From Terriglobia bacterium (GTDB lineage: Bacteria; Acidobacteriota; Terriglobia; Bryobacterales; Bryobacteraceae): DNA of 64,000 nt. The DNA is taken from assembly GCA_020073615.1 (NCBI GenBank), contig JAIQEX010000019.1:1-64000 (forward strand). Direction: 5' to 3'. Positions 9,148 through 51,304 of the stretch are shown piece after piece. Within the stretch, counting starts at the first letter, position 1. The number at the start of each line of letters is the position of its first letter. Both the position numbers and the translations under genes were made by a program. Under the pieces are notes generated by a model. That model saw only the letters and a program-made list of their open reading frames with translations, made no database searches and was not told the DNA's origin.

Positions 9148-10415
9148 TTCTCGCCCTTGCCGGCCTTTTCGTCCTCGTCCTTCTCGCCGGGTTTGACGAT
9201 GCGCACTTTCGCCTTGTCCTGAAGCCCCACGCCGCCCATCACTACCACCTGATCTCCGGCCACGGCGCCGCTCAGGATCTGGACTTTGTCGGGCTCGCGG
9301 ACGCCCACTTCAACCTTCTTTTCATGCGCGGTGGAGTCCGCGCCGACGACCATCACGGCGGTGCCGCCCTCGGAACCGGGCAGGAGCGCGGCGGTGGGCA
9401 CAACCACGGCATCGGGAATGGTCCCGGTGACGATGGCGGCGCGCACGGAGGCGCCGGGCTTGAATTTCTCGGCGGGATTGTCGGCCTGCACCCAGACCTG
9501 GACGGTGGTGCTGTTGGGGTCGGTGGCCGGGCTGACGACGATCACTTTGCCGGGCGTGCTCAGGCCGCTGTCGGCGGCGGTGATGGTGGCCGGGTTGCCG
9601 ATCTTGACGAAGGCCGCCTGGCTCTGCGGAACGTTGACGCGCGCCACCACGCGCGAGATATCCATCACTGTCAGGAGGGGAGTGCCGGGTGCGGGAACTT
9701 CGCCGGCGTACAGCGGACGATCGGCGATCACGCCGCTGATAGGGCTGCGGACCTGCGTGTACTCCACCTGGGCCTGGGCATTCTGCAGGTGGCCGCGGGC
9801 GGCCTCCACCTGCGCGGCGGCCCCGGCGATCTGCTCCTGCTTGCCCACCGACTGCAGCGCGCGCAGGTGTTCCTGCGCGGCCAGGTACTGGCTGTGCGCC
9901 TGCGTGTAGGCCACTTGCGCATCGTCCACCAGCTTGCGGGCGAGCGCGCCCTGCTCGAAGAGTTTCTGCCGGTTGTCGAGGAGACGCTTGGCGGCGTCTT
10001 CGGTCTGTCTGGCGGCGTCCACGTCGGTCTGCGCCTTGACCACCGCTTCGGGAACGGCCACCGCCTGCGTGGAGCGCAGGTTCGACTCGGACTGGTCGAG
10101 CTGTCCCTTGCTCTCCGCGGTGGCCGCCGCCAGGTCGCGGTTTTCGAGCACGGCGAGCAGTTGGCCCTGTTTCACGTGGTCGCCGCGGTTCACCAGGAAG
10201 CGCGCAACCGGCGCGCTGATTTTGGGCACCACGTTGGCCTGGTCCTTCGGCCACAGCACACCATCGGCGGTGACCATGCGGCGGATCGATTCCTGGGTGG
10301 CCGCGGTCACCTGCACGGGCGCGATCGGCTCCGCCTCCTTCTCCTCTTTCTTGGAGCAGCCGGACATGGCGAGCAGGCACAGGGCGGCGAGCGATAGCGT
10401 TCTTTTTCCGTTCAT
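9144..10415 (-). CDS. RND efflux periplasmic adaptor (membrane fusion lipoprotein)
   Basis: This 423-residue adaptor links the RND pump to the outer-membrane channel. The N-terminus is a lipoprotein signal (CLLAMSGC, lipidated Cys20). A barrel-sandwich half follows (ARFLVNRGDHVKQGQLLAVL), then a long alpha-helical hairpin (about residues 100-205) rich in Gln, Ala and Glu, then the second lipoyl half (YTQVRSPISGVIADRPLYAGE). The beta-barrel and a membrane-proximal domain complete it. The tail is Lys/Glu-rich (GEKDEDEKAGKGEK). It is 3 bp from the upstream TolC gene. Confidence 0.93.
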   Translation of the reverse strand: MNGKRTLSLAALCLLAMSGCSKKEEKEAEPIAPVQVTAATQESIRRMVTADGVLWPKDQANVVPKISAPVARFLVNRGDHVKQGQLLAVLENRDLAAATAESKGQLDQSESNLRSTQAVAVPEAVVKAQTDVDAARQTEDAAKRLLDNRQKLFEQGALARKLVDDAQVAYTQAHSQYLAAQEHLRALQSVGKQEQIAGAAAQVEAARGHLQNAQAQVEYTQVRSPISGVIADRPLYAGEVPAPGTPLLTVMDISRVVARVNVPQSQAAFVKIGNPATITAADSGLSTPGKVIVVSPATDPNSTTVQVWVQADNPAEKFKPGASVRAAIVTGTIPDAVVVPTAALLPGSEGGTAVMVVGADSTAHEKKVEVGVREPDKVQILSGAVAGDQVVVMGGVGLQDKAKVRIVKPGEKDEDEKAGKGEK

Positions 10416-10418
10416 GGG

Positions 10419-11720
10419 CTAGAAGGCTCCCGTAAGTGTCTGCAGATTGGCCAGGGCCAGGCGGTAGCGCGCCAGGCCGTCGTCGGAGGCGTTGCGCGCC
10501 TGTACCAGGGTGGTCTGCGCATCCACCACTTCCAGCACCGAGACCTCACCCGCCTGGTAGCGCAGCACGGTCAGGCGCAGGCTCTCGGCCGAGAGGTCGA
10601 GCGAGCGCCGAAGCGAGTCGAGCTGCGCGTGGGCGGCATCGGCCTCCAGGTAGAAGGCGTGCAAGTTGGCCAACAGTTGCCGCTGCGCGAAGGTTAGCTC
10701 CGCGCGCGATTGGTCGAGCCGCAGCTCGGCCTGGCGGACCTTGCTGCGCGCGGCGCCCCAGTTCCAGATGGGGATGTTCAGGCTGGCCACTACCGAAGAC
10801 CCCAGATTGTTCTGCTGGAATTGATTGTGGAGCGCGTACTGGTTGGCGTTGAGGCCGAAGAAATAATCGAGGCTGAGCGCGGGCAGGAGTGCGCTCTTCG
10901 CGGACTTGATGCCGTACTCCTGCTGCGTGACCGCGGCCTGGGCCGCGCGGACATCCGGATTGTTCTTGCTGGCCAGTCCTTCGATTTCGGGGAAAGCCCC
11001 GAGGGGCGGCGCGCTGTCGAGATCGTCCATTACCGCGAAATCCTGGCGGAAATCCGGGAACAACAGAACGGCGAGACCGATGCGCGCCTTGTCGAGTGCG
11101 ATTTGCGCCTCTTGCAGGTCGCGCTGGCGCTGGAGAAGCTGCAGTTGCGCTTTGACCACATCGGAGTGCGCCGCTTCGCCGCCCTGTTCCTGCTTTTCGG
11201 TGATGCCGGCGAAATCCTGGGCCTCGCGCAGGCTGCGCTGGGCATTGTCCAGCTTGCGCGCGGCGGTCACCATGGCGTAATAATCCTGCACGACGGTGGC
11301 CACCAGGCCGCGGCCGGCAATCTCGGCTCTGGCGCGCGCCACCGCCTCGGCCGCCGTGGCCGCGCGGTAATCGGCCAGCTTGCCGGGCGAATAGATATCG
11401 CCATGCGCCGCCGCCATGTTGGTGAACACATTGTGCCCGTTGTTAGCCACGAAGACGCCGGTATCGGTGCCGTTGGGCTGGGTGTAGACGTACTCGTGCT
11501 CCCAGTTGAGCGTGGGCAGCAGGGCGGCCTTGGCTTGCACAGTGTCCTCGTGCGCGATGCGCGCGGCGATATTGGCGGCCAATAACTGCGGGCTGTAGGT
11601 GCGCGCGCGCTGGAGCGCATCGGCGAGCGAGAGGCTCAAGGTAGCGTTGGGCGGAGCCTGGGCGGCCAGGCCGGCTGCAAGAGCCAGACCGATCCCCACC
11701 ATCGGCGTCGGACGAAGCAT
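10419..11720 (-). CDS. TolC-family outer-membrane efflux channel
   Basis: This is a 433-residue outer-membrane factor with two repeated alpha-helical/beta units typical of TolC. LADALQRARTYSPQLLAA marks the first unit and QAAVTQQEYGIKSAKSALLP the second. The start chosen is ATG at 11720 (MLRPTP), because GGGG lies just upstream and a normal signal peptide follows (MVGIGLALAAGLAAQA). An upstream ATG at 11750 has no ribosome site. The frame stays open far into the histidine kinase gene, but that stretch is a shadow. It completes the tripartite pump with the next two genes. Confidence 0.9.
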   Translation of the reverse strand: MLRPTPMVGIGLALAAGLAAQAPPNATLSLSLADALQRARTYSPQLLAANIAARIAHEDTVQAKAALLPTLNWEHEYVYTQPNGTDTGVFVANNGHNVFTNMAAAHGDIYSPGKLADYRAATAAEAVARARAEIAGRGLVATVVQDYYAMVTAARKLDNAQRSLREAQDFAGITEKQEQGGEAAHSDVVKAQLQLLQRQRDLQEAQIALDKARIGLAVLLFPDFRQDFAVMDDLDSAPPLGAFPEIEGLASKNNPDVRAAQAAVTQQEYGIKSAKSALLPALSLDYFFGLNANQYALHNQFQQNNLGSSVVASLNIPIWNWGAARSKVRQAELRLDQSRAELTFAQRQLLANLHAFYLEADAAHAQLDSLRRSLDLSAESLRLTVLRYQAGEVSVLEVVDAQTTLVQARNASDDGLARYRLALANLQTLTGAF

Positions 11721-11760
11721 GGAAACGCCCCAGTATAGGATTTGGGACATGAACAGACGA

Positions 11761-13131
11761 TTAATCCCGTGGCAATGATACCGTAAAGGTGCTGCCGGAG
11801 CCCGGACGGCTGGCCAGCACGACGTCGCCATTGTGCGATTCCGCAATCCACTTGACGATCGAGAGACCCAACCCAAAACCGCCATCCTGCCGCGAGCGCG
11901 CCTTGTCGGCGCGGTAAAAGCGCTCAAAAACATGGGGCGCCGCGTCCGCCGCGATGCCCACGCCGGTATCGGAAACGCGGATGCGCAGGTGCGTCCCTTC
12001 CTGTTCCAGAGCCGCCGAAACCTTGCCACCGGGCGGGGTGTAGCGGATGGCGTTGTCGAGCAGGTTCATCACCAGGCGGCGCAGCAGCTCCTCGTCGCCA
12101 CGAAACGCCACGTCGTCGCCGGGCCGGCATTCCAGATCGATGCGGCGCGCTCCGGCCAGGGTCTGCGCCGCGCGGCAGCATTCCGCCAGCAGGTCGTTGA
12201 GGTAGAACTCCTGGACCTGCAGGCGGACGCGTCCGGCGTCGGCACGCGCCAGGTTGAGCAGGTCGTCCACCAGGCGCGAGAGGCGCCGCGATTCGTCGAG
12301 TATGATGGCCAATGTTTCCTGGTATTCGGCGGCGGAGCGCTGGTGCGACAGGGCCACGTCGGCCTCGCCGCGAATCACCGAAATCGGCGTGCGCAGCTCA
12401 TGCGAAGCATCGGCCACGAAGCGCCGCATGCTCTCGAAGGATCGATCGAGCCGGCTCAGCAGCGCGTTGAAAGACGCGGCGAGCACGGCGAGCTCCTGGG
12501 CGGCGTCGCCGATCTCCAGGCGCGCGTCGAGATTGCTGTCCGTAATTTTGTGCGCCTGTTCCGCCATCCAGCCGAGGGGCGCGAGAGAGCGGCTGGCCAG
12601 CACGTAGCCTCCCAGGCCCGCCAGGGCCACGAGCAGCGGCAGCGCGAAGAACAGCGAGCGGCGCACGACGCCGAGCTCGGCGGCAATGGAATCGCGCGGC
12701 GCGAGCGCCACGATCAGAAAGTCCCGGCCAGATGTTGCGAGGCGATGCACCGCCGCGCGCGCGCCGTATTTGCCGTACGACACCCCGATCATCCCGGCGG
12801 GTGCGGCGGCGATCCCCTCGAGTTGACGCGCCGGCACAGGGCCGCCAGCCGCCAAGAGCCGTGTTTTTTCGAACACGGCTATGGCGCCATCGGGAACGCG
12901 CATGTCAGACACGACGTTCGCGGCGGCGAGCGGAGCATCGCCGTGCATCTCTTCCAGCTCATCCTGAAACAGCCCAGCAGTGGTCACCGCCTGCGCGGCG
13001 AGCGATTCGTCGAGACGCTTCTCGAGGGCGCGCGAAAGCACGCCGTAAAGGAAGACGCTGAATATCAGGAACAGCAGGGAAAAAAATGCCAGGTACCAGG
13101 CCGTGAGCCGCAAGCGGAAGCTCTTAATCAT
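11761..13131 (-). CDS. two-component sensor histidine kinase
   Basis: This is a 456-residue membrane kinase of the CusS/EnvZ class. TM1 spans about residues 11-31, a periplasmic sensor of about 125 residues follows, TM2 is at about 159-179, then HAMP, then the HisKA H-box ADASHELRTPISV (phospho-acceptor His244). The ATPase domain has the N-box NLLDNAIRYT, GVGIA (G1) and GFGLGLSIVKW (G2). The start overlaps the end of the response-regulator gene by 8 bp. Its place at the head of an efflux operon suggests that it senses the pump substrate or an envelope stress. Confidence 0.93.
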   Translation of the reverse strand: MIKSFRLRLTAWYLAFFSLLFLIFSVFLYGVLSRALEKRLDESLAAQAVTTAGLFQDELEEMHGDAPLAAANVVSDMRVPDGAIAVFEKTRLLAAGGPVPARQLEGIAAAPAGMIGVSYGKYGARAAVHRLATSGRDFLIVALAPRDSIAAELGVVRRSLFFALPLLVALAGLGGYVLASRSLAPLGWMAEQAHKITDSNLDARLEIGDAAQELAVLAASFNALLSRLDRSFESMRRFVADASHELRTPISVIRGEADVALSHQRSAAEYQETLAIILDESRRLSRLVDDLLNLARADAGRVRLQVQEFYLNDLLAECCRAAQTLAGARRIDLECRPGDDVAFRGDEELLRRLVMNLLDNAIRYTPPGGKVSAALEQEGTHLRIRVSDTGVGIAADAAPHVFERFYRADKARSRQDGGFGLGLSIVKWIAESHNGDVVLASRPGSGSTFTVSLPRD

Positions 13132-32119: not shown

Positions 32120-34738
32120 GTGCCGCTGATGTCCGCCGACGCCTCCACGCCGCTCATGCGGCAGTACCACAGCATCAAGCAGCAGGTTCCGGGCGCGCTG
32201 CTCATGTTCCGCCTGGGCGATTTCTACGAGCTGTTTTTCGAGGACGCCGTGGTGGCCGCGCGCGAGCTCGAAATCACGCTCACCGCGCGCAACAAGGAAA
32301 AGGGCGCCGCCATTCCCATGTGCGGCGTGCCGTATCACGCGGCCGAGGGTTACATCGCGCGCCTCATTCAGAAGGGCCACCGCGTGGCCATCTGCGACCA
32401 GATGGAAGATCCGCGCCTCGCCAAGAAACTGGTGAAGCGCGAAGTCACGCGCGTGGTCACTCCGGGGACCGCCATGGACCCCAACCTGGTGCGCTCGCGC
32501 GAGAACAACTACCTGGCCGCGGTGGCGCGCGGAGAGGACCGCTCCGCGGTGGCCCACGTCGATCTCTCCACCGGCGAGTTCCGCGTCACGGAGTTGGAGC
32601 CCGCCGAGGTCGCGGGCGCGCTCGAACAACTGGGCGCGCGCGAGGTGCTGTTCCCCGGCGAACTCCCCCTGCTCACCGGCCAGGAAGGGCCTGCTCCGCG
32701 ATTTGTGCGCACGGAGCTGGAAGAGTGGATTTTCAGCGGCGATTACGCGGACCGCACGCTGCGCGAGCATTTCAAGCTGCTCTCGCTCGATGGCTGCGGC
32801 CTGGCCGGCCATCCCGCGGCGGTGGGCGCGGCGGGCGCCATCCTGCATTACCTTCGCGATACCCAGCGCGGGGGGCTCGACCACCTCGACCGCCCGGCCT
32901 ACTACGACCGCGCCGGCTCCATGGTGCTCGATGCCGTTACTGTGCGTAACCTGGAGCTGGTCGAGCCGCTCTTCGCGGCCGATGCCGCCGCCGATTCACG
33001 CGCCACGGTGCTCGGCGGACTGGACCAGACGCTCACCGGCATGGGCGGCCGCCTGCTCCGCCAGCGCCTGCTGCGGCCTTCCATGGACCGCGCGGAAATC
33101 GACCAGCGCCTCGACGCCGTGGGAGAACTGCTGCGCGAGACCATCCTGCGCGCGGAACTGCGCAAGCATCTGGGCGGCATCCTCGATCTCGAACGTCTGC
33201 TCGCCAAGGTGACGCTCGGCTCCGCCGGCCCGCGCGACCTGCTGGCGCTCGGGCGCTCGCTCGCAGCGATTCCCGCGCTCAAGCGCTGCTTCGATACCCG
33301 GCAGGCGGCGCGTCTGCGCGCGATCGAGGAACGGCTCGACGACGTTCCCGAAGCCGCGGGCCTCATCTCCGACGCCATCGCCGACGAGCCGCCGCTCTCT
33401 ATCGCCGATGGCGGCGCCATCCGCCCCGGCTTCAACCCCGAGCTCGACGAGCTGCGCGATCTCAGCCGCAACGGCCGCCAGTATATCGCCCAGATCGAAG
33501 CGCGCGAGCGGCAGCGCACCGGCATCCAGTCGCTCAAGGTGCGCTTCAACAACGTGTTCGGCTACTACATCGAGATCACGCGCGCCAACCAGCACCTGGC
33601 CCCCGCCGATTACGAGCGCAAGCAGACGCTGGCCAACGCGGAGCGCTTCACCACCCCTGAGCTGAAGGATTACGAGCGCAAGGTGCTGGACGCCGAAGAC
33701 AAGATCCTCACCCTCGAGAAGGAGCTTTTCACCCAGGTGCGTAAACGCGCGGCTGCCGAGGCGCAACGCATTCGCGCCACCGCCTCGGCCGTGGCCGAAC
33801 TGGATGTGACCGCATCGCTGGCCCAGGTGGCCGCCGAACACCGCTACCAGCGGCCGGCTTTTTCCGAGAACGGCGAAATGCGCATCCTGGCCGGCCGCCA
33901 CGCGGTGATCGAGCGGCTCACCGAGCAGGAGGCCGCCCGCTTCATCCCCAACGATCTATACCTCAACGATTCCACCGACCTGATCGCCATCATCACCGGG
34001 CCCAACATGGGCGGCAAGTCCACCTACCTGCGCCAGGCCGCGCTCATCGCCATCCTGGCGCAGATGGGCTCGTTCGTGCCCGCCGAATCCGCCAGCCTGC
34101 CCGTTATCGACCGCATCTTCACGCGCATCGGCGCGTCCGACAACCTTTCCCGCGGGCGCTCCACGTTCATGGTCGAGATGACCGAGACGGCCGTGATCCT
34201 GAACACCGCCACGCCGCGCAGCTTCATCGTGCTCGACGAAATCGGCCGCGGCACCGCCACCTTCGACGGCCTGGCGCTGGCCTGGGCGGTGGTCGAGCAC
34301 ATCCACGCGCGCACCCGCGCCAAGACCCTTTTCGCCACGCACTATCACGAGCTGACCGAACTGGCCGAACTGCTCGATGGCGTGCGCAACCTGCACGTCT
34401 CCGTGAAGGAGGCCGGCGACCACATCATCTTCCTGCGCAAGGTGGAGCCGGGCCGCGCCGACCGCAGCTACGGCATCGAAGTTGCGCGCCTGGCGGGCCT
34501 GCCCCTGGGCGTGATCGAGCGCGCGCGCGAGGTTTTGAAACTGCACGAGCGCACCGAGCACGCGGTCTCGGGCGAGCTGACGAAGACCGAGGAAGCCGGG
34601 CCGGTGCAGATTCAGCTTTTCGAGCCCCTGGGCTACGGCATTGCCGAGCGCGTCCGCGGCCTGGATCTGGACCGGCTGCGCCCCATCGAAGCCCTGCAAC
34701 TGCTCAGCGAATTGCAGAAGGAGCTGAAACGATCGTGA
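32120..34738 (+). CDS. mutS: DNA mismatch repair protein MutS
   Basis: This 872-residue protein has the mismatch-reading motif MFRLGDFYELFFEDA (about residues 30-44), connector, lever and clamp regions, and the ATPase with Walker A GPNMGGKSTYLRQ (about 623-635), Walker B FIVLDEIGRGTATFDG and FATHYHELTEL. It recognises mispairs after replication. The GTG start is preferred because GAGG lies five bases upstream; ATG 32129 is an alternative. Its stop overlaps the GTG of anmK (GTGA). mutL is not in the window. Confidence 0.96.
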   Translation: MPLMSADASTPLMRQYHSIKQQVPGALLMFRLGDFYELFFEDAVVAARELEITLTARNKEKGAAIPMCGVPYHAAEGYIARLIQKGHRVAICDQMEDPRLAKKLVKREVTRVVTPGTAMDPNLVRSRENNYLAAVARGEDRSAVAHVDLSTGEFRVTELEPAEVAGALEQLGAREVLFPGELPLLTGQEGPAPRFVRTELEEWIFSGDYADRTLREHFKLLSLDGCGLAGHPAAVGAAGAILHYLRDTQRGGLDHLDRPAYYDRAGSMVLDAVTVRNLELVEPLFAADAAADSRATVLGGLDQTLTGMGGRLLRQRLLRPSMDRAEIDQRLDAVGELLRETILRAELRKHLGGILDLERLLAKVTLGSAGPRDLLALGRSLAAIPALKRCFDTRQAARLRAIEERLDDVPEAAGLISDAIADEPPLSIADGGAIRPGFNPELDELRDLSRNGRQYIAQIEARERQRTGIQSLKVRFNNVFGYYIEITRANQHLAPADYERKQTLANAERFTTPELKDYERKVLDAEDKILTLEKELFTQVRKRAAAEAQRIRATASAVAELDVTASLAQVAAEHRYQRPAFSENGEMRILAGRHAVIERLTEQEAARFIPNDLYLNDSTDLIAIITGPNMGGKSTYLRQAALIAILAQMGSFVPAESASLPVIDRIFTRIGASDNLSRGRSTFMVEMTETAVILNTATPRSFIVLDEIGRGTATFDGLALAWAVVEHIHARTRAKTLFATHYHELTELAELLDGVRNLHVSVKEAGDHIIFLRKVEPGRADRSYGIEVARLAGLPLGVIERAREVLKLHERTEHAVSGELTKTEEAGPVQIQLFEPLGYGIAERVRGLDLDRLRPIEALQLLSELQKELKRS

Positions 34739-35802
34739 GAGTCGCCGGCGTCATGAGCGGGACCTCGCTCGACGGCATCGATGTGGCCATTGTGGAAGTG
34801 CGCGGACGGCGCGTCGAAACGATCGGGTTTCAGTCCACGCCCTACCCGCGGGCGATGCGCGCGGCGATCCTCGGCGCCGCCACGCCAGCGGATGTGTCGC
34901 GTCTGAATTTTCAGCTTGGCGAGCTGTACGCGCGGGCCGTTCTGCACGCCGTCCAGCGATTTGGCGCCGTGGAGCTGATCGGCTGCCATGGGCAGACCGT
35001 CTACCACCAGGGCGGCGCGCACACCTTACAGATCGGCGAGCCGGCCGTTGTGGCCGAGCGCACCGGGGTTCCCGTGGTTTCGAATTTTCGCGCGCGCGAT
35101 ATCGCCGCCGGCGGCCAGGGCGCGCCCCTGGTACCTTACGTCGATTACCTGCTGTTCCGCCACCCGAAGCGCACGCGCATCGCTCTGAATATCGGCGGTA
35201 TCGCCAACATTACGGTGATCCCGCCTGCAGCCGCGCCCGAAGAGGTGGTGGCATTCGATACCGGACCCGGCAACATGGTCATCGACGCTCTGGCGAGCGA
35301 GTACACCAGGGGGAAGTTATGTTTCGACCGCGGCGGCCGTATCGCCGGCGCAGGCAAGGTCAACCGCGCGCTCCTCGAGGAACTGCTCGCCGACCGCTAC
35401 TACCGGCATCCGCCGCCCAAAAGCGCGGGCCGCGAGCAATATGGCGTGGAATTCGTCACGCGGATGAAACGATCGCGCCTGCCCCTGCGCGATCTGGTCG
35501 CGACCGCCACCGTATTGACGGCCGCAACCATCGCCATGGGCGTGACGCCGCGAGCGCCCCGCAATTCCGACCTGATTGTCTCCGGCGGCGGCGTACACAA
35601 TCCCGTCATCATGGGACATCTCGCCGCTCTTCTGCCGGGAGTCCGCATCTCCACGTCTACCGATCACGGCATCGACGCCGATGCCAAAGAAGCCATCGCG
35701 TTCGCGGTGCTGGCATACCGGACATGGCGCCGCGAGCCCTCCAACCTGCCCTCCGCCACGGGTGCGCGCCGCGCGGTCGTGCTCGGCAGCCTTACGCCGT
35801 AG
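34735..35802 (+). CDS. anmK: anhydro-N-acetylmuramic acid kinase
   Basis: This 355-residue enzyme phosphorylates and opens 1,6-anhydro-MurNAc released by lytic transglycosylases, feeding peptidoglycan recycling. Marks: VAGVMSGTSLDGIDVAIVE (ATP site), GCHGQTVYHQ, NFRARDIAAGGQGAPLVPYV, NIGGIANITVI, FDTGPGNMVIDA and the C-terminal SGGGVHNP. It overlaps mutS by 4 bp and the small zinc-binding gene by 11 bp (convergent). Confidence 0.95.
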   Translation: MRVAGVMSGTSLDGIDVAIVEVRGRRVETIGFQSTPYPRAMRAAILGAATPADVSRLNFQLGELYARAVLHAVQRFGAVELIGCHGQTVYHQGGAHTLQIGEPAVVAERTGVPVVSNFRARDIAAGGQGAPLVPYVDYLLFRHPKRTRIALNIGGIANITVIPPAAAPEEVVAFDTGPGNMVIDALASEYTRGKLCFDRGGRIAGAGKVNRALLEELLADRYYRHPPPKSAGREQYGVEFVTRMKRSRLPLRDLVATATVLTAATIAMGVTPRAPRNSDLIVSGGGVHNPVIMGHLAALLPGVRISTSTDHGIDADAKEAIAFAVLAYRTWRREPSNLPSATGARRAVVLGSLTP

Positions 35803-42104: not shown

Positions 42105-42171
42105 TGTCCCGCGAGCCGCCCGCCGATAAACATCGTAGAGCTCGGAATTGGAAGCGGCAACAAGGAGAACT

Positions 42172-42630
42172 ATGACGTTTACGACGGCCCACTTTGGCCC
42201 CATCGCGGTAGACGAGACATCGATCATCGAATTCCCGGAGGGGCTGCCTGGGTTTGAAGACCGCCGGCGCTTTGTGGCGCTCCAGCAGCCCGCCCACCAG
42301 GGCTTGGTGTTTCTCCAAAGCCTGGAGATCGCCGCCCTCTGTTTCCTGGCGCTGCCGGTGCTATCCGTGCGCCCGGACTATCGGCTCGCCATGACGCCGG
42401 AAGACCTGAAGCTGTTGGGCTTTCCCGAGGACCACAGCCCCGAAATCGGCAGCGAGGTGGTGGCGCTGGCGATCCTCTCCCTGACGGAAGGCGAAGAGCC
42501 CACCGTCAACCTGCTGTCACCCGTGGTGATTCACACGCAAACGCGGCGCGCCGTCCAGGCCATCCGCCCCGACGACCGTTACGGCTGCCGCGAAGCGCCG
42601 CTCCGGGAAGAAGTGGCTGTATGCTCGTGA
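42172..42630 (+). CDS. fliW: flagellar assembly factor FliW
   Basis: This 152-residue protein has FGPIAVDETSIIEFPEGLPG and FEDRRRFVAL at the N-terminus, and VALAILSLTEGEEPTVNLL and SPVVIHTQTRRAVQ later, all typical of FliW. FliW binds flagellin and CsrA and relieves CsrA repression of flagellin translation. AAGGAGAACT before ATG 42172 fixes the start. It overlaps csrA by 10 bp, the usual gene pair, although no flagellar genes lie in this window. Confidence 0.93.
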   Translation: MTFTTAHFGPIAVDETSIIEFPEGLPGFEDRRRFVALQQPAHQGLVFLQSLEIAALCFLALPVLSVRPDYRLAMTPEDLKLLGFPEDHSPEIGSEVVALAILSLTEGEEPTVNLLSPVVIHTQTRRAVQAIRPDDRYGCREAPLREEVAVCS

Positions 42631-42854
42631 TCCGGCGTCACACGGGCCAGTCCATACGGGTGGGCGAGGCGGAGATCCAGGTCATCGAGTGCGGCCACAA
42701 CCGCGTCAAACTGGGCATCAGCGCCGCCCGGGACATTCCCGTGGTGCGTACCGAAGTCGAGCTCACCCGCGAGCAGAACCTCACCGCCGCGCGTCCGGTC
42801 TCGCCCGCCGCGCTTTCCGGCGTGCTGCGGGACATTCGCGGATTTTCCCCTTAA
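42621..42854 (+). CDS. csrA: carbon storage regulator CsrA
   Basis: This 77-residue RNA-binding regulator has MLVIRRHTGQSIRVGEAEIQ, the core VKLGISAARDIPVVR and the following ELTREQN helix. It represses translation by binding GGA motifs in leaders. Its C-terminal tail is slightly longer than usual. It directly overlaps fliW, its protein antagonist. Confidence 0.95.
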   Translation: MLVIRRHTGQSIRVGEAEIQVIECGHNRVKLGISAARDIPVVRTEVELTREQNLTAARPVSPAALSGVLRDIRGFSP

Positions 42855-43774: not shown

Positions 43775-44584
43775 ATGGCGCGCAGCGGGACGAAACAGCC
43801 ACTGACCAGAATCAGCGGGCAGACCATCATCGACGAGTTGATCCGCAACATGGAGGTGGGACGGCTCGAGCTGGGATACAGCATCCTGCTGCCGTGCATC
43901 TTCAGCGTCTATTTGCATCCCGACGATTATGGGCGGCTGGCGGCGGTGCAGGACATCATGAAGGAAGACGCCAAACGGGCATTGACGGCACGGGTGGCGG
44001 AATGGAATGCCGCCAAAGGCCCGCGCTTCGGGCGGGGCGCCGCGCCCAAAACGTATCGAACCGCACAAAACGACTGGTCGATCCAACTGTTCGCCGACAC
44101 GGAGAATGCCGTGCCCGCGGGCGACGTGGAGATTCACTCCGAATTGAACGACGTGGCGCGGCCGGGGTATCGCGGCGCCAAAACAACGCTGATCGAGCGT
44201 GAGCCGGCGGTGACCGCGGCCCGGGTGGCGCGCGACCGCGAGAGCACGCGGCGGCAGCCCGACCGGATTTTCGCCGAGATCCGCTACCAGGACGACTCCG
44301 GACCGCAGACCTACTTCGTGACCCAGAACGAAATCAGCATCGGCCGCGGGGGCGAGGACCTGTGGGTGGATTTGCCGCTGTACACCAACGACGAGGTGTC
44401 GCGCGAGCATGTGGGGCTGCGGCGCGACGCGGCGAGCGGGGCCTTCGCCATCGTCGACAAGAGCCGCAACGGCACGTGGCTGAACGGGCGGCGCCTGGCG
44501 CGCGGGGTGGAGGAGCCGATGCCCGACCGCGCGGAAATCGGCGTGGCGGAAGTGCTGAAGCTGTCCTTCGAGGCCCGGAAGTGA
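43775..44584 (+). CDS. FhaA-like FHA-domain protein 1
   Basis: This 269-residue protein has an N-terminal domain (about residues 15-125) resembling the DUF3662/FhaA N-domain (ILLPCIFSVYLHPDDYGRLA, VPAGDVEIHSELN) and a C-terminal FHA phosphothreonine-binding domain. FHA marks are ISIGRGGEDLWV, EVSREHVGLRR and DKSRNGTWLNGRRL, with the binding Arg, Ser and Asn present. It should recruit proteins phosphorylated by the kinase encoded three genes downstream. It overlaps the next small gene by 4 bp. Confidence 0.88.
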   Translation: MARSGTKQPLTRISGQTIIDELIRNMEVGRLELGYSILLPCIFSVYLHPDDYGRLAAVQDIMKEDAKRALTARVAEWNAAKGPRFGRGAAPKTYRTAQNDWSIQLFADTENAVPAGDVEIHSELNDVARPGYRGAKTTLIEREPAVTAARVARDRESTRRQPDRIFAEIRYQDDSGPQTYFVTQNEISIGRGGEDLWVDLPLYTNDEVSREHVGLRRDAASGAFAIVDKSRNGTWLNGRRLARGVEEPMPDRAEIGVAEVLKLSFEARK

Positions 44585-44676
44585 AAGAACTCTACCAGCT
44601 CCACACGCCGTTTGCGATCGCGTTTCTGGCGTTCGTGGCGCTCTTTGTGGCCATGCATTGGAAGGAGCGCCGGTGA
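44581..44676 (+). CDS. 31-residue single-helix membrane peptide
   Basis: A GTG at 44581 overlaps the FHA gene stop, and the TGA at 44674-44676 overlaps the GTG of the phosphatase gene, both in the GTGA arrangement. The product (KELYQLHTPFAIAFLAFVA, then LFVAMHWKERR) has one membrane helix of about 18 residues and a basic tail. Coupling on both sides and a plausible helix argue for a real gene. Function is unknown; a scaffold or regulator for the membrane-bound kinase/phosphatase is a guess. Confidence 0.7.
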   Translation: MKELYQLHTPFAIAFLAFVALFVAMHWKERR

Positions 44677-45563
44677 AGTCGGGAGCCGTCACCGACGCGG
44701 GCCTGGTGCGCGCGCACAACGAAGACCGGTATTGGGTGGACGACCAGCGGGGCGTTTACCTGGTGGTGGATGGCGTGGGGGGGCGTGCCGGCGGCGACCT
44801 GGCGGCCGAGACCGCCGTGGAGACTATCCGCGAATCGGTCTGCGCCGGCGAGGGGCCCGTGGAGGAGCGCGTGCGCCGCGCCATCATGCTGGCCAACAAC
44901 CGCATTTTCGAGCTGGCGCAGGCGGACCAGGAGCGCCGGGGCATGGCCTGCGTGCTGACCCTGGCGGTAGTGGAGGACGGCTACGCCACCATCGGGCACG
45001 TGGGCGATTCGCGCCTGTACCTGATCTGGAACGGCGCCATGCGCAAGGTGACCTCCGATCACTCGCCGGTGGGCGAGCAGGAGGACGCTGGCGAGCTGAG
45101 CGAGGAAGAGGCCATGGCCCATCCGCGCCGCCACGAGGTATTTCGCGACGTGGGATCGCGGCTGCGCGAGGCGGCAGACGAGGAGTTCATCGAGATCCGC
45201 CGGTGCCGCTTCCGGCCCGATGCGGCCCTGCTGCTGTGCAGCGACGGGCTCACCGACCAGATCACCTCGGCCGAGGTGCGCGACGCGGTGGCGCGCTACG
45301 ACGGCGACGCGGCGGCCGTGGCTGGAGAATTGGTGGAGCGTGCCATCGAGGCCGGCGGACGGGATAACATCACGGCAGTGCTGGTGGCCGGGCCGCAGTT
45401 CCGAGGGCATGGCGAGCGAACGCGGCGGCGGCCGGCTGCAACGCGGGTGCGCCTGCCGCGGCCGCGGATGCTGACCGGGCGCATAGCCTTTCTGGGGTAT
45501 GGGCTGCTGCTGGGCATGCTGCTGTGGGCCGTCCTGCGGGCGGCGAGAGGATCGATGCCATGA
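44673..45563 (+). CDS. PP2C-family Ser/Thr protein phosphatase, membrane-anchored
   Basis: This 296-residue PPM phosphatase has the metal-binding motifs LVRAHNEDRYWVDD, VVDGVGGRAGGD, GHVGDSRLYL, LLLCSDGLTDQ and GGRDNITAVL in the standard order. A C-terminal membrane helix (IAFLGYGLLLGMLLWAVL) anchors it, like mycobacterial PstP but without the large extracellular part. GGAAGGAG five bases before GTG 44673 fixes the start. It should reverse phosphorylation by the adjacent kinase, whose ATG overlaps its stop. Confidence 0.92.
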   Translation: MKSGAVTDAGLVRAHNEDRYWVDDQRGVYLVVDGVGGRAGGDLAAETAVETIRESVCAGEGPVEERVRRAIMLANNRIFELAQADQERRGMACVLTLAVVEDGYATIGHVGDSRLYLIWNGAMRKVTSDHSPVGEQEDAGELSEEEAMAHPRRHEVFRDVGSRLREAADEEFIEIRRCRFRPDAALLLCSDGLTDQITSAEVRDAVARYDGDAAAVAGELVERAIEAGGRDNITAVLVAGPQFRGHGERTRRRPAATRVRLPRPRMLTGRIAFLGYGLLLGMLLWAVLRAARGSMP

Positions 45564-47272
45564 CCGCGCCGGCGCGCATCGGCCGTTACGAAATCGTCCG
45601 CCGCATCGGCCGCAGCATGACCGACGTCTATCTGGCCATAGACACGGTGGAGAACCGCCAGGCGGCGCTCAAGCTGATTCCGCGGAGTGACGACCCGGTT
45701 ACGAAGCTGGTGCTCGAAGCGGAACGGCGCGGCGCACGCATCCAGCAGAAGCTGCGGCTGCTGGATCCGCGCATGGTGGAGATTTACGAATTCGGGGATC
45801 TGGACGGCTACTTTTTCGTGGCCATGCAGTATGTGGAAGGGCGCAACCTGGCCGAGGTACTGGCCGCCGAGCGCGCCATCGACGCCACACGCGCGGCCGC
45901 GATTGCGCTCGAGATCTGCGAACAACTGGCGAAGTTTCACGCGCAGGAATCGGCGGTGGTGCACGGCGATATCAAGCCTTCCAACATCCATCTGGGGCGC
46001 AACGATACGGTGCGCCTGTTGGACTTCGGCATCGCCAAGACGCTGCGCGCGGATTCGAACGCCACCATCCACAATTTCGGGAGCCCGAGCTACTGCTCGC
46101 CGGAGCGGCTGGCGCGCTCGGAGGTGGATGAGCAGTCGGACCTGTGGGCCGTGGGCGCCACGCTGTACGAGATGCTGGCGGGGGCGCCGCCGTACCAGGC
46201 GGACAGCACGCGCAAGCTGGAGAGCCTGATTCGTTCGAAGCGGCCGCCGCGCGCGTTGCACGGAAGCTGCCCGCGCGCCTTGCGGGCGGTGACCATGAAG
46301 GCGCTGGCGCCCAATCCCGGAGGGCGATACCGGTCGGCGGGCGAATTTCAGGCCGATTTGCAGGCGTTTTTGGAGCGCAAGCCGACGCTGGCCGAAATGG
46401 AGCGGCGCGCGGGGTGGAGCGCCAACGCCACCATCGAAGCGGCGCGCGACTGCCTGGTGCGAGCCACGCGCACGCTGGCGCGGGCCAAGCGGCGGCTGCA
46501 GATCGCGGGCGGGCTGGCGTGGTTTGCCATGGGCATGACGCTGTGGATCGGCGGGACCTTCGGGTGGCAGGCGCTCCAGGCGCGCCGTGTGCCGCCGCCC
46601 CCGGCGCTGCCTGCGCCTCCCGTTGCTTCGCTGCCGCGCGTCCCTACCTTGAATGAAGAACTGCCGCTGATGTACGTCGCGGCGGCTGAGCGCATCTTTG
46701 AATCCTACCGCGCCAGCGCGGACGCCTCGCTGCACGATTTCGACTGGCAGAAGGCCGAGATTTGCCTGGAGCGCGCGGTGGAGCTGGGCCGCGGCGACGA
46801 CCGGACGCTGGGATCGCTCGCCCTCGCCCGCGGTTACGCCACGCTGGAGCGCCTCGCCGGCGCCCATTATTCCGAAGCGGCGGCGGTGCAGTTGCGGTAC
46901 TACGCGCGAGACCAGTTTGCCATGGCCGCGGCGAAGATGCCGCAAAACGCCGAGCCGCACCTGGCGCTGGCGCGCGTGTATGTTTACTCGCTGGCGGATG
47001 TGGACCAGGCGATGGAGGAGTTCGCGGCGGCCGAGCGGCTGGGGACCGCGCCGGGACGCCGCGAAATCGAACAACAGGCGGATGCCTACCGCATGCGCGC
47101 CGAGAAGGAAGCGCCGGCGGCCCCGCGGCGCGCGTGGCAGGATGCGCAAACGGCGCGCGGTCTGTATCAGAGGATCGCCGGCTTCGGCCAGGTGGATCAA
47201 CACCTGCGCGAGTTGGAGACGGCGGCGCGGCGCTGGATGGGGCACGGCGCACGAGGCCGCACATGGCGGTAA
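45560..47272 (+). CDS. Ser/Thr protein kinase with membrane helix and TPR-like tail
   Basis: This 570-residue protein has a Hanks-type kinase domain (about residues 8-270): ATP Lys in AALKLIPRS, catalytic loop VVHGDIKPSNIHLG, DFG in RLLDFGIAKTL and SPSYCSPERLARSEVDEQSD. The catalytic loop has HGD instead of HRD, so it is not an RD kinase. A membrane helix (LAWFAMGMTLWIGGTFGW, about 318-335) is followed by a Pro linker and a helical TPR-like region (about 370-570), presumably extracytoplasmic. It overlaps PP2C by 4 bp and the fused polymerase gene by 10 bp. Confidence 0.92.
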   Translation: MTAPARIGRYEIVRRIGRSMTDVYLAIDTVENRQAALKLIPRSDDPVTKLVLEAERRGARIQQKLRLLDPRMVEIYEFGDLDGYFFVAMQYVEGRNLAEVLAAERAIDATRAAAIALEICEQLAKFHAQESAVVHGDIKPSNIHLGRNDTVRLLDFGIAKTLRADSNATIHNFGSPSYCSPERLARSEVDEQSDLWAVGATLYEMLAGAPPYQADSTRKLESLIRSKRPPRALHGSCPRALRAVTMKALAPNPGGRYRSAGEFQADLQAFLERKPTLAEMERRAGWSANATIEAARDCLVRATRTLARAKRRLQIAGGLAWFAMGMTLWIGGTFGWQALQARRVPPPPALPAPPVASLPRVPTLNEELPLMYVAAAERIFESYRASADASLHDFDWQKAEICLERAVELGRGDDRTLGSLALARGYATLERLAGAHYSEAAAVQLRYYARDQFAMAAAKMPQNAEPHLALARVYVYSLADVDQAMEEFAAAERLGTAPGRREIEQQADAYRMRAEKEAPAAPRRAWQDAQTARGLYQRIAGFGQVDQHLRELETAARRWMGHGARGRTWR

Positions 47273-50200
47273 CCAGAAGCTGGACCGCGCCCGGCGCCAC
47301 GCCGGTGGCGGTGGCCATCGCGCGGCCGGCCGTGCCGCGCAGAGAGTGGGTGTGGCTTTTAGGGGCCTCGCTTTTCGTGGCGGCCGGGTTGGCCATGGTC
47401 TATGCGGCCAAGAGCCCGGGCTTCGCCGCGGTGGAGCAGCGGCTGGCGCGCGGCGAGCTGGTCAACCTCAATACCGTGGCGGGGCCGGAGGAGCTGCTGC
47501 CGCTGCTGGAATCGTTTCCCAGCCGCGCGGAGCGCGAACTGGTGGCGCAGTCCGCTTTCGATTTCCTCGCCCGCTCCCGGCCGCTCGCCAACGACGGCGC
47601 GTTGTCGAGGCTGCGGGTTTCAGCGGACGAAATCGCCAGCGACACGCGGTGGGATGTGCTCCGCCGGCGGCTGCGCGAGCAGCCGGCGAGCCCGCGCCGC
47701 CGCCTGCAACTGCTCCCCCTGGCGCGGCTGAAGCCGCTGATGGTGGTGCGCGCGCCGCGCGCATTCCGCCGCGAGTTTCTGCTCTGGACGGGACTCTACT
47801 TCGCGGGCTTTTGGCTGGTGGCGCTGGTTTGGACGCGGGCGCGCTTTCGCGGCGACGGCGCCTTTCTGCCCGCGCTGCACCTGCTCACCGGCATCGGCCT
47901 GGTGCTGATGGTGAGTCTGCGCGACCCGCTGCGCGACACCCTCGAGTTCCACAAGTTTGCCCTCGGCGTTTTCCTGGGGTGTCTGCTCCTCGCGTTGCCC
48001 GCGCTGAAGGCGTTCGATTACCGGAAGCTTTCCGACTGGTGCTACACGCCGCTGTTCGCCGCGCTGGGCCTGTTCGCGGCGCTCCTGGCGTTCGGCAAGG
48101 GACCGGCCGGCAACGACGCGAAAGTGAACCTCGGGCCCTTCCAGCCGGTGGAGCTCATCAAGATCCTGTTGGTGCTGTTTCTGGCCGGGTACTTCACGCG
48201 CAACTGGGAGCGGCTGCGCGATCTGCGCGAAAAACGCGTTCTGCCGCGATTGTTCCGGCGCATCGGCCTCGCGCGGCTGGAGCACGTCGTCCCGGTTCTG
48301 TGCGCGGTGGGGGTGGCGGTGGTCCTGTTCTTCGTCCTGAAGGATCTGGGCCCGGCCCTGGTAACTTTCTTCGTGTTTCTGGCGATGTTCGGCGTGGCCC
48401 GGGGGCGCCCCGGTCTGGCGCTGGCGGGCCTGGCCCTGATGGTGGGGTCGGTGGCCGTGGGCTATCGCCTGGGCCAGCCGCATACCGTGGTGGAGCGCAT
48501 CGACATGTGGCTGGCGCCGTGGGACAACGACGTGCACGGCGGCGACCAACTGGCGCACGGGCTGTGGGCCTTCTCCACCGGCGGCCCGTGGGGCTCGGGC
48601 CCGGGCTGGGGCGACCCGGAAATGATTCCGGCGGGCAGCACGGACCTGGTCCTGCCGGCTATCGGCGAAGAGTGGGGCTTCGTGGGTGTGGCGGCGGTGT
48701 TTCTGCTGTTCGGCTTTCTGGTCTCGCGCGCGCTGCGGGCGGCGGCGCGCGCGGCGACCCATTTCGGGTTCTTCCTGGCGCTGGGGCTGGCCAGCCTGGT
48801 GGCGTTCGAGGCGATGCTGATCACGGCGGGCGTGCTCGGCGCACTGCCGCTTTCGGGCGTAGTGTCGCCGTTCCTCAGCTCGGGCAATACGGCCATGCTG
48901 GCCAACTTCCTGGTGTTCGCGCTGGTGCTCTCGATTTCGGCGGACGGAGCGACGAAAAGCACCGCCCTGCTCCGCAACCCCACGCGCTACCTGAAAGCCG
49001 CCCTGGCGTGCGGCGGAATCGTGCTCCTGGCCATGGCCGCGCGCTACCAGGTGGTGAAAGACGCCGACTACCTGGCGCGCGACGCGCACGCGTTCGAAGA
49101 AGACGGCGTGAAGCGGCCGCAGCACAATCCGCGCATGAACTCCATCGCGCGCGAAATTCCGCGCGGCAGCATCTACGACCGCAACGGGATTCCTCTGGCC
49201 ACCGGTAGTTGGGAGGAGATGGAGCGCCACCGGGCCGACTACTCCGCGCTGGGCGTTGCGCTCGACCAGGCGTGTTCGCGTTTCGACAGCCGGCACTATC
49301 CGTTCGGGGCGGCCACCGCGCACATGGTGGGCGACCTGCGCACGGGCGAGAATTTCCACGCCAGCAATGCGTCGCTGGTGGAGCACGATTCCAACCCGAA
49401 GCTGCAGGGATACCAGTATGCGGAGCTGGCGCCGCTGGTGCGCTACCGGCATCAACCGGGCAACCAGGGGATCGCGCGGGTGCTGGCGCGCGACCGCAAT
49501 GTGCGGTTGACCCTGGACATCCGGCTGCAACTGCGCGCCAAGGAAATCCTGGAGCGGCACTTGCGGCAAACCGGCAGCCAGAAGGGCGCGGTGGTGGTGC
49601 TGGACGCGGCTACGGGCGATGTGCTGGCGATGGTGAGCGCGCCCGCGCCCGACCCGCCCGGCATCCGTGCAGCCGCACCCGCGCCGGACGACTTGCTGGA
49701 CCGCGCGCGTTACGGGCAGTATCCGCCGGGCTCGACCTTCAAGCTGGTGACGGCCATGGCCGCGCTCGACGCCAACCCCGCGCTCAAGCATCGCACCTAC
49801 CTGTGCCGCACGCTGCCCGGCGGCCGCGCGGGCAACACCATCGCCGGCTGGAACCGCGCCATCAAGGACGATATCGGCGACCGCGCGCACGGCACGCTCG
49901 ATATGGGTCGCGCCATCGCGGTCTCGTGCAACGCCTACTTTGCCCAGTTGGGCGTGCACGACGTGGGGGCGAAAGCCCTTGCCGGGATGGCCGCGCGGCT
50001 GGGGATTTCGACCGGCGAGCTGACGGAACTGCGCCGCGCCATGCCGTTTGCGGCGTATGGCCAGGGGCCGGTGCTGATCTCGCCGTTCCAGATGGCGCGC
50101 GTGGCGGCGACCATTGCCGCGGGCGGACGCATGCCGCAGGGCCGCTGGCTGGCCGATGACAGCAACCCGCGCACCGCGGGTGCGGTGGAGGCGCTACCCG

Positions 50201-50493
50201 CCGAGCAGGCCGCATTTCTGGCCGCGGCCATGCGGCGCGTGGTCACCGAAGGAACGGCGCGGCGCGTGATGGCGGGATCGGAAATCAGCTTTGCCGGGAA
50301 GACGGGCACGGCGCAGCTCGACCAGGGCTTGCCGCACTCCTGGTTTACGGGCTTCGCTCCCTACGGCGGAGACGCGCCGCGGCGCCTGGCCTTCGCGGCG
50401 CTGGTGGAGCACGGCGGATATGGCGCGCGGGCGGCGGCGCCCATCGCGCGGGAAGTGATGGAGGCGGCGCGCGAACTGGGGCTGCTGCCGTGA
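47263..50493 (+). CDS. fused FtsW/RodA glycosyltransferase - penicillin-binding transpeptidase
   Basis: A single 1076-residue frame joins two normally separate enzymes. About residues 25-585 are a SEDS polymerase: FQPVELIKILLVLFLAGYF, KDLGPALVTFFVFLAMFG and MIPAGSTDLVLPAIGEEWGF. About residues 600-1076 are a class B PBP: the N-terminal RGSIYDRNGIPLATG, then PPGSTFKLV (S824-x-x-K827), VSCNAYF (S888-C-N890) and AGKTGTAQL (K1013-T-G). All three transpeptidase motifs are intact. An extra soluble segment (about 50-150) follows the first helix. The PBP pedestal is short. It should polymerise and cross-link peptidoglycan in one molecule under control of the upstream kinase. Confidence 0.92.
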   Translation: MAVTRSWTAPGATPVAVAIARPAVPRREWVWLLGASLFVAAGLAMVYAAKSPGFAAVEQRLARGELVNLNTVAGPEELLPLLESFPSRAERELVAQSAFDFLARSRPLANDGALSRLRVSADEIASDTRWDVLRRRLREQPASPRRRLQLLPLARLKPLMVVRAPRAFRREFLLWTGLYFAGFWLVALVWTRARFRGDGAFLPALHLLTGIGLVLMVSLRDPLRDTLEFHKFALGVFLGCLLLALPALKAFDYRKLSDWCYTPLFAALGLFAALLAFGKGPAGNDAKVNLGPFQPVELIKILLVLFLAGYFTRNWERLRDLREKRVLPRLFRRIGLARLEHVVPVLCAVGVAVVLFFVLKDLGPALVTFFVFLAMFGVARGRPGLALAGLALMVGSVAVGYRLGQPHTVVERIDMWLAPWDNDVHGGDQLAHGLWAFSTGGPWGSGPGWGDPEMIPAGSTDLVLPAIGEEWGFVGVAAVFLLFGFLVSRALRAAARAATHFGFFLALGLASLVAFEAMLITAGVLGALPLSGVVSPFLSSGNTAMLANFLVFALVLSISADGATKSTALLRNPTRYLKAALACGGIVLLAMAARYQVVKDADYLARDAHAFEEDGVKRPQHNPRMNSIAREIPRGSIYDRNGIPLATGSWEEMERHRADYSALGVALDQACSRFDSRHYPFGAATAHMVGDLRTGENFHASNASLVEHDSNPKLQGYQYAELAPLVRYRHQPGNQGIARVLARDRNVRLTLDIRLQLRAKEILERHLRQTGSQKGAVVVLDAATGDVLAMVSAPAPDPPGIRAAAPAPDDLLDRARYGQYPPGSTFKLVTAMAALDANPALKHRTYLCRTLPGGRAGNTIAGWNRAIKDDIGDRAHGTLDMGRAIAVSCNAYFAQLGVHDVGAKALAGMAARLGISTGELTELRRAMPFAAYGQGPVLISPFQMARVAATIAAGGRMPQGRWLADDSNPRTAGAVEALPAEQAAFLAAAMRRVVTEGTARRVMAGSEISFAGKTGTAQLDQGLPHSWFTGFAPYGGDAPRRLAFAALVEHGGYGARAAAPIAREVMEAARELGLLP

Positions 50494-50503
50494 GGAGGTG
50501 ACG

Positions 50504-51304
50504 ATGAACCTTACCGAGTATCTGGAAAAGTGGGGCAGGACGCTGTTCGAGGCGCCGCTGGCCACCGCGCCCAAGCCCGAGGAGCCGCCCGAGCTCGCCG
50601 AAATCCGGCTGGCGGTGCTGGACCAGGTGCGCGAAAAAAGCTACCGCTCGGGCGGCAAGAAGGTTTTCCCCTACGACCTGGTGCGCGTGGAGTTGCGCGG
50701 CGTGGAGGAGAGCCGCCACAGCGTCTTCGCGGGCCGGTTTTTTCGCAAGTATCTCGAACAGGAGGTCGCGGGCGCGCTGCGCGACGCGGGCTGCCGGTTT
50801 CCCGAGGACCTGCGCGTGGAGGTTCGGGCGGCCATCGGGTTGCCGCAGCGCGGCGTCGAGTGGCTGGTGGTGGAGGTGGCTTCGCGGGAGAGCGTGGAGG
50901 GGGCCGCCCGGCCGGTGGCGAAGCTGGTGGTGCGCGAGGGCACGGCCAATGTGCCGGCCATCCCGCTGGAGAAGCCGCGGACCAACATCGGCCGCGTGGT
51001 GGATGTCTATCGCGACAAAGGACTGTTCCGCCGCAACGACCTGGCCTTTGCGGAGGACACCGCCATCAATCGCTCGGTATCGCGCGAGCACGCGCACATC
51101 ATGTTCGACAAGGCGGCGGGCGAATATCGCCTGTTCAACGACCGCTGGTATCCCCTGGAGAGGCCGGGCGTGGAGGAGTGCGGCACGTGGATCGTGCGCG
51201 ACGGCATGAGCCAGGAGGTGCACCGCAACGCCCGCGGCGCGAAGCTCGAGCCGGGCGACGAAATCCACTTCGGGCAGGCGGTGGTGGTGTTCGAGATGGA
51301 GTAG
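50504..51304 (+). CDS. FhaA-like FHA-domain protein 2
   Basis: This 266-residue protein repeats the layout of the first FHA protein. The N-terminal domain (about 40-130) resembles DUF3662 (KKVFPYDLVRVELRGVEESR, FFRKYLEQEVAGALRDAG), and the C-terminal FHA domain has TNIGRVVDVY and AINRSVSREHAHIMFD. The NG-T-NG loop of canonical FHA domains is altered, and inserts lengthen the first strands. AGGAGGTG three bases before ATG 50504 decides the start. It closes the operon 10 bp behind the fused polymerase. Confidence 0.85.
   Translation: MNLTEYLEKWGRTLFEAPLATAPKPEEPPELAEIRLAVLDQVREKSYRSGGKKVFPYDLVRVELRGVEESRHSVFAGRFFRKYLEQEVAGALRDAGCRFPEDLRVEVRAAIGLPQRGVEWLVVEVASRESVEGAARPVAKLVVREGTANVPAIPLEKPRTNIGRVVDVYRDKGLFRRNDLAFAEDTAINRSVSREHAHIMFDKAAGEYRLFNDRWYPLERPGVEECGTWIVRDGMSQEVHRNARGAKLEPGDEIHFGQAVVVFEME

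Follow-up and report, generated by a model that had tools for sequence, protein, structure and literature searches.

A kinase- and FHA-linked operon encoding a fused SEDS-PBP peptidoglycan synthase in Acidobacteriota

Even in mycobacteria, the way in which Ser/Thr kinases control cell wall synthesis is poorly understood; there the kinase, the FHA proteins and the synthase are encoded together, yet to our knowledge direct kinase action on RodA or PbpA has not been established. The actinobacterial operon fhaA-fhaB-pstP-rodA-pbpA-pknA-pknB has been described together with its FhaA protein (PMC6554272 and PMC11898655, respectively); wall synthesis is regulated by the products of this operon, one of which, FhaA, binds wall proteins in their phosphorylated form. 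Natural fusions of a SEDS polymerase with a penicillin-binding protein (PBP) are mentioned in PMC10449877, which cites the Rhodococcus RHA1 genome, and an engineered Escherichia coli RodA-PBP2 fusion showed polymerase activity and penicillin binding (PMC10449877). Here we analyze a 64,000-nucleotide stretch of the genome of a soil Terriglobia bacterium (hereafter the window; GenBank assembly GCA_020073615.1, contig JAIQEX010000019.1, positions 1 to 64,000), in which a SEDS polymerase and a class B PBP are encoded as one polypeptide within an operon that also carries genes for a kinase, a phosphatase, a membrane micropeptide and two FHA proteins. We consider it probable that this operon is a rearranged member of the FhaA/PstP/RodA/PbpA/PknB kind and specifies an accessory peptidoglycan synthase with RodA and PbpA in one chain, phospho-controlled in the manner proposed below.

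The fusion is real, and it is old. The SEDS and transpeptidase regions lie in a single open frame at 96 of the 97 loci examined, on independent contigs, which excludes a stop or frameshift at residues 585-635 and confirms the covalent tie between polymerase and cross-linker that an earlier note on this DNA had proposed. In the 1076-aa window protein (47263-50493, forward strand, as is the whole operon), PF01098 matches aa 211-560 with 164 bits against a cut-off of 26.4 and PF00905 matches aa 775-1067 with 142 bits, while the GT51 domain had no match. The downstream half has the marks of a class B PBP, namely PF00905, SxxK, SxN and KTG motifs, and a single transmembrane (TM) helix and pedestal ahead of the transpeptidase; the motifs S824-T-F-K827, S888-C-N890 and K1013-T-G1015 are invariant in 54 sequences. 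In the SEDS half, D461 aligns with the catalytic Asp of E. coli RodA (D262; PMC10449877) and FtsW (D297; PMC8765783), and is invariant in 35 of 35 fusions and in all other groups; Pro456, Arg412, Glu469 and Gln294 are conserved as well. A suspected loss of this Asp was rejected: invariant Asn422 does align with a RodA loop Asp, but that residue is D220.

We read the topology of the synthase from an AlphaFold (AF2) model built from the 54 sequences (pLDDT 89.1, pTM 0.80) together with known SEDS and class B PBP topologies. A cytoplasmic N-terminal tail, disordered in the model and bearing a MAVT[RK]S motif (47263-47340), precedes a predicted TM helix (aa 27-50), a helical extracytoplasmic domain (aa 51-164) and a further TM helix (aa 165-192), which together span 47341-47838; these are followed by the SEDS glycosyltransferase core (47854-48942, with Asp461 at 48643-48645) and the class B PBP (48964-50490), itself composed of a TM helix (aa 568-598), a pedestal (about aa 600-745) and the transpeptidase. 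The string 'LVNLNT...EELLPLL' in the extra N-terminal domain had raised the suspicion of a helix-hairpin-helix (ComEA-like) identity, but nothing in Pfam matched this domain and we leave it unnamed. With VIA-align, the class B PBP part superposed on Pseudomonas aeruginosa PBP3 (Z 45.8, rmsd (root-mean-square deviation) 2.4, 365 aligned) and Mycobacterium tuberculosis PbpA (Z 42.4, rmsd 2.5, 342 aligned).

The operon occupies 43775-51304 in the order FHA-peptide-PP2C-Ser/Thr kinase (STK)-SEDS/PBP-FHA. Upstream of the synthase lie genes for a 269-aa FhaA-like protein, FHA1, with an FhaA_N-like N-terminus and a C-terminal FHA domain (43775-44584; PF00498, 37 bits), a 31-aa micropeptide with a single TM segment whose GTG start lies over the FHA1 stop (44581-44676; MKELYQLHTPFAIAFLAFVALFVAMHWKERR), a 296-aa PP2C-type Ser/Thr phosphatase with a hydrophobic segment at its C-terminus (44673-45563; PF13672 57.9 bits, PF00481 48.4 bits) and a 570-aa Ser/Thr kinase (45560-47272; PF00069, 127 bits). 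Downstream is FHA2, a second FhaA-like protein of 266 aa with a divergent FHA domain (50504-51304), recognized by hhalign, by its retained FHA residues and by its position after the fusion. The frames overlap by 4 bp at the FHA1/peptide, peptide/PP2C and PP2C/kinase junctions and by 10 bp at the kinase/fusion junction, and 10 bp separate the fusion from FHA2; no match to a sigma-70 promoter was found in the operon region. The earlier note's account of six co-directional, overlapping or near-touching genes thus stands, and the identities it gave to the FHA, PP2C, kinase and FtsW/RodA plus class B PBP products agree with Pfam and NCBIfam. It made no mention of the N-terminal extra periplasmic domain, of the TPR-like sensor domain of the kinase or of the paralogous second operon described below.

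Linkage of the fusion to signaling genes is tight across its relatives. Among loci with enough flanking sequence, the kinase lies upstream at 54 of 55, FHA1 at 53 of 55 and PP2C at 51 of 55, and FHA2 lies downstream at 64 of 65; these neighborhoods rule out an unlinked fusion, the outcome that the earlier note had named as one that would refute its reading. As far as the contigs extend, the same order recurs at seven other loci, spread over six related genomes. Of the 80 fusion loci recovered by a scan of a genome collection, 79 have titles that place them in Acidobacteriota lineages (Bryobacterales, Solibacter, Occallatibacter, Thermoanaerobaculia, Holophagales and gp18); the remaining locus (L032) is Opitutaceae by title. 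A named isolate, Occallatibacter savannae AB23 (L085), has the complete cassette. The fusion is patchy across Acidobacteriota, with 50 carriers among 150 genomes of the window's family and 11 among 396 genomes sampled from the phylum. A second complete operon (FHA-PP2C-STK-fusion-FHA) is present in the same genome on contig C47 (G000:C47:11307-14516, locus L015) and belongs to the other deep lineage of fusion operons, with a TRRT kinase and no micropeptide. Besides the fusion, the host genome encodes RodA/PBP2 and FtsW/FtsI as separate proteins, which makes the fusion an additional synthase rather than the main one; nearly all of 60 genomes from the phylum carry two ordinary SEDS genes.

Related clusters occur in other forms. 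Acidobacterial FHA-PBP-SEDS clusters with unfused genes were found at L164, L165 and L166, with PP2C and a kinase alongside in G065 and G078; the G065 operon reads FHA-PBP-SEDS-PP2C-STK-FHA, and its kinase terminates in an SH3_3 domain that may sense the wall. Outside the phylum, a Spirosoma oryzicola plasmid (Bacteroidota; NZ_CP089545.1, L116) carries an FHA-PP2C-STK-STK-fusion-FHA cassette. Two unusual arrangements were also encountered: adjacent frames for a 1028-aa transpeptidase and an 800-aa divergent SEDS protein in G087 (contig C6, L174), and, in G057 (contig C187, L169:652-4818), FHA, SEDS and transpeptidase regions in one 1389-aa open frame that reaches the contig end, which to judge from its sequence would be a phospho-reader fused directly to the synthase.

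Several lines of evidence connect these operons with the actinobacterial one. A profile of the 54 fusions searched against PDB matched M. tuberculosis PbpA first (3un7, 5.7e-41), with Thermus PBP2 close (3.8e-39), and the top Foldseek match for the transpeptidase was again M. tuberculosis PbpA (3upn, 2.7e-19). In a SEDS tree, canonical RodA, FtsW and SpoVE fell on one side of a branch (support 98) and the FHA-linked SEDS proteins of Actinomycetota, Clostridia, Acidobacteriota and Spirosoma on the other; in the alignment, RodA residues 252-253 are deleted from every protein on the FHA-linked side, and the fusions have this two-residue deletion in common with actinobacterial RodA. The actinobacterial references came from plasmid-collection records, one of which (Nonomuraea, 11.85 Mb) is evidently a misfiled chromosome. 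Acidobacteriota fusions grouped together (95), and a branch supported at 85 had all fusions, that of Spirosoma included, on the same side, which we take as suggestive only. Both FHA proteins appear to be FhaA-like: hhalign comparison with actinobacterial FhaA gave probabilities of 98.4 over the full length of FHA1 and 97.7 for the N-terminus of FHA2, and in two relatives, G099 (33.7 bits) and G165 (29.6 bits), an FHA gene of the fusion operon scored above the FhaA_N cut-off. The phospho-Thr-binding residues of FHA1 (G-R, S, H and G) are invariant in 68 of 68 relatives. FHA2 scores only weakly against the Pfam model (17.0 bits, cut-off 20.7), but it keeps G-R in 75 of 75 relatives, S in 68 of 73 and H in 71 of 73, which marks it as a genuine divergent FHA protein.

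The kinase consists of a PknB-like kinase domain (HGD, non-RD), a juxtamembrane region, one TM helix (about aa 313-331) and an extracytoplasmic domain. PknB_PASTA_kin matched at 197.6 bits over aa 8-281, the kinase domain only, and the cut-off of 450 for NF033483 (Stk1/PknB equivalog) was not reached; PASTA had no Pfam match in the kinase. In a structural model, aa 331-570 are helical (pLDDT 90.7) and resemble TPR proteins (top match Z 13.0, rmsd 3.8, 170 aligned); the kinase has this TPR-like outer domain in place of PASTA. The phosphatase scored 192.7 bits against NCBIfam Stp1/IreP, under the cut-off of 230. Conserved Thr motifs in the kinase juxtamembrane region and in the synthase tail are candidate phospho-sites. 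In one lineage the former takes the shape of [DE]xTRRT repeats, with 83 T.RT occurrences in 39 of 81 regions against a shuffled mean of 6 and maximum of 14. In the MAVT[RK]S motif of the synthase, the fourth residue is Thr in 72 of 87 distinct sequences under motif-blind start calling, which served as a check on selection bias in the A3 set, chosen by motif regex, in which Thr4 is present in at least 90% of sequences. Constraint from gene overlap was rejected as an explanation of this motif: within codon 4 only the first base, at most, is set by the kinase stop, and residues 5-6 are encoded past the overlap.

The micropeptide, apparently unannotated, is a conserved gene. An open reading frame (ORF) of 27-35 aa with a TM segment occurs at the same position in 37 of 41 distinct homologous gaps of 80-180 bp, well beyond chance (mean 0.13 and maximum 2 in dinucleotide-shuffled gaps), and the tiny membrane peptide pointed out in the earlier note is thereby substantiated. 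The ORF usually overlaps the FHA1 stop by 4 bp, and its codon differences are commonest at third positions (1110, vs 777 and 637). It is retained in L026 and L027, which have lost PP2C, and this speaks for a function alongside the kinase or synthase; in L057 it is gone, like PP2C. One sublineage, including the paralogous copy L015, is without it, and the Spirosoma cassette has a 27-aa hydrophobic ORF in its unannotated FHA-PP2C gap.

In the working that we propose, the SEDS half would polymerize lipid II through Asp461 and pass the glycan to the attached transpeptidase (Ser824) within a fixed 1:1 complex. The membrane kinase would sense a periplasmic cue via its TPR-like domain, autophosphorylate its juxtamembrane Thr motifs and phosphorylate the cytoplasmic tail of the synthase, with Thr4 as the candidate site; the two FhaA-like proteins would bind to the resulting phospho-Thr residues, in this way holding or gating the synthase, PP2C would reset these marks, and the one-helix micropeptide may be a membrane subunit that helps to assemble or tune the kinase-synthase complex. 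We infer control by phosphorylation, and a conserved diderm cassette with a one-chain synthase, to which FHA is itself fused in one genome, points to the synthase as a kinase target. The more specific version, in which phospho-Thr4 gates the single-chain synthase and is read by the flanking FhaA-like proteins while the micropeptide serves as a kinase-synthase subunit, we hold only tentatively; if true, it would amount to a direct phospho-switch on a SEDS-class B PBP enzyme and a new micropeptide regulator.

A number of observations weigh against the reading of this operon as a phospho-controlled relative of the actinobacterial one. PP2C is not an obligatory part of the fusion operon, as L026, L027 and L057 are without it; the TRRT repeats are absent from the lineage of the window kinase, which has N-x-T-[IVL]-E in its juxtamembrane region instead, a pattern spotted by eye only; window FHA1 itself scores under the FhaA_N cut-off (PF12401, 17.5 bits against 25); the SEDS tree leaves the deep order of actinobacterial and acidobacterial SEDS unfixed; the window operon has one kinase, TPR-like and without PASTA, where the actinobacterial operon has PknA and a PASTA-bearing PknB; and enzymatic activity, phosphorylation, FHA binding, the role of the micropeptide and the condition of use are all things that we infer. 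The SEDS half also departs from E. coli FtsW at W138 (K287), P196 (K360), R243 (V409) and G381 (N/R/K542), positions at which substitutions are non-functional (PMC8765783), so its activity may be altered. It may even serve as a scaffold in the membrane or polymerize an altered substrate, in an operon that mainly controls a regulated transpeptidase: the R101-W102 pair in the lipid II loop of RodA is A286-K287 in the fusions, a warning about activity that lies outside the Pfam family definition, G343 of RodA is replaced by N/R/K542 in the fusion clade, and at equivalent positions FtsW W138A and G381D abolish septal synthesis in E. coli (PMC8765783). We think this unlikely, given the conservation of Asp461 and the four other residues named with it above; actinobacterial RodA, moreover, deviates at the P196 and R243 equivalents and lacks the Arg of R101-W102, although it keeps the Trp, and the Ala-Lys pair may simply move a positive charge by one residue.

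The unfixed deep order, with several long-branch rows in the tree, could also be taken to mean that the cassette was assembled independently, by unrelated FHA, kinase and phosphatase genes joining a SEDS-class B PBP pair, and that its likeness to the actinobacterial operon is convergence; the TPR-like domain in place of PASTA and a gene order unlike fhaA-fhaB-pstP-rodA-pbpA-pknA-pknB fit such an origin. FhaA_N in the FHA genes, PbpA as the best transpeptidase match, the common SEDS deletion with separation from canonical SEDS, and the unfused arrangement inside Acidobacteriota make it improbable, and of the 'independent or rearranged' circuit suggested in the earlier note it is the rearranged, homologous one that we retain; an independent origin is not favored. 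A different proposal concerns when the system is used: the fusion may be reserved for special occasions such as resting cells, envelope damage or encapsulation, with the kinase circuit as a stress sensor rather than a controller of elongation or division. Its patchy presence, the ordinary SEDS genes beside it and the two fusion copies in the same genome speak for this, and nothing direct counted against it; we regard it as possible but well short of established, and, since it overlaps in mechanism with the phospho-controlled accessory synthase that we prefer, the two are compatible. That the fusion is an assembly or frame artifact joining two genes is close to inconceivable: the genome assembly is fragmented (6.96 Mb in 252 contigs, the window being contig C168), but the single frame, linker region included, at nearly every locus and a fusion 93% identical in a sister genome refute it.

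Acidobacteriota are diderm, and the Gram-negative-type envelope assumed in the earlier note is supported by an RND efflux set in the window (AcrB-type, HlyD-type and an outer-membrane OEP channel; 6097-12029, reverse strand). AnmK, an anhydro-MurNAc kinase of wall recycling, is encoded at 34735-35802, directly after MutS and some 8 kb before the operon; fliW and csrA, nearer upstream at 42148-42854, had no match beside the fusion in the related loci compared.

Set against the actinobacterial operon, as represented by Tsukamurella (L118) and Actinomyces (L119), the window likewise clusters an FhaA-type FHA protein, PP2C, SEDS, a PbpA-type class B PBP and a membrane kinase, and its SEDS protein shares the 252-253 deletion and several residues (W416 and P452 equivalents). 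Unlike that operon, with its separate rodA and pbpA, the window operon joins SEDS and PBP in a single chain; it has an FhaA-like protein at either end and no recognized FhaB, its gene order differs, it includes a micropeptide and its host is diderm. The clostridial Monoglobus cluster (L120) also has adjacent FHA, SEDS and class B PBP genes and the same SEDS deletion, but these are unfused, and kinase and phosphatase are not annotated in the stretch read. The Spirosoma cassette differs in its two kinases, its strong divergence and a 1323-aa fusion with a CarboxypepD_reg-like N-terminal domain (sub-threshold). The Rhodococcus-type natural fusion likewise has one ORF for SEDS and PBP, its operon, phospho-signaling and conservation not being described in PMC10449877, and the engineered E. 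coli RodA-PBP2 chain indicates that such a fusion can work, although it is artificial, lacks the N-terminal TM pair and periplasmic domain, and has canonical RodA cavity residues. In a search limited to open-licence papers we found no published description of this fused, kinase-linked cassette, nor of its TPR-like kinase or its micropeptide. The cassette offers a compact system for testing kinase control of wall synthesis, with the one-helix peptide as a new candidate regulator; as far as we found, the actinobacterial operon and SEDS-PBP fusions were known, and what is new is their union in a fused, kinase-linked cassette with a TPR-like kinase and a micropeptide.

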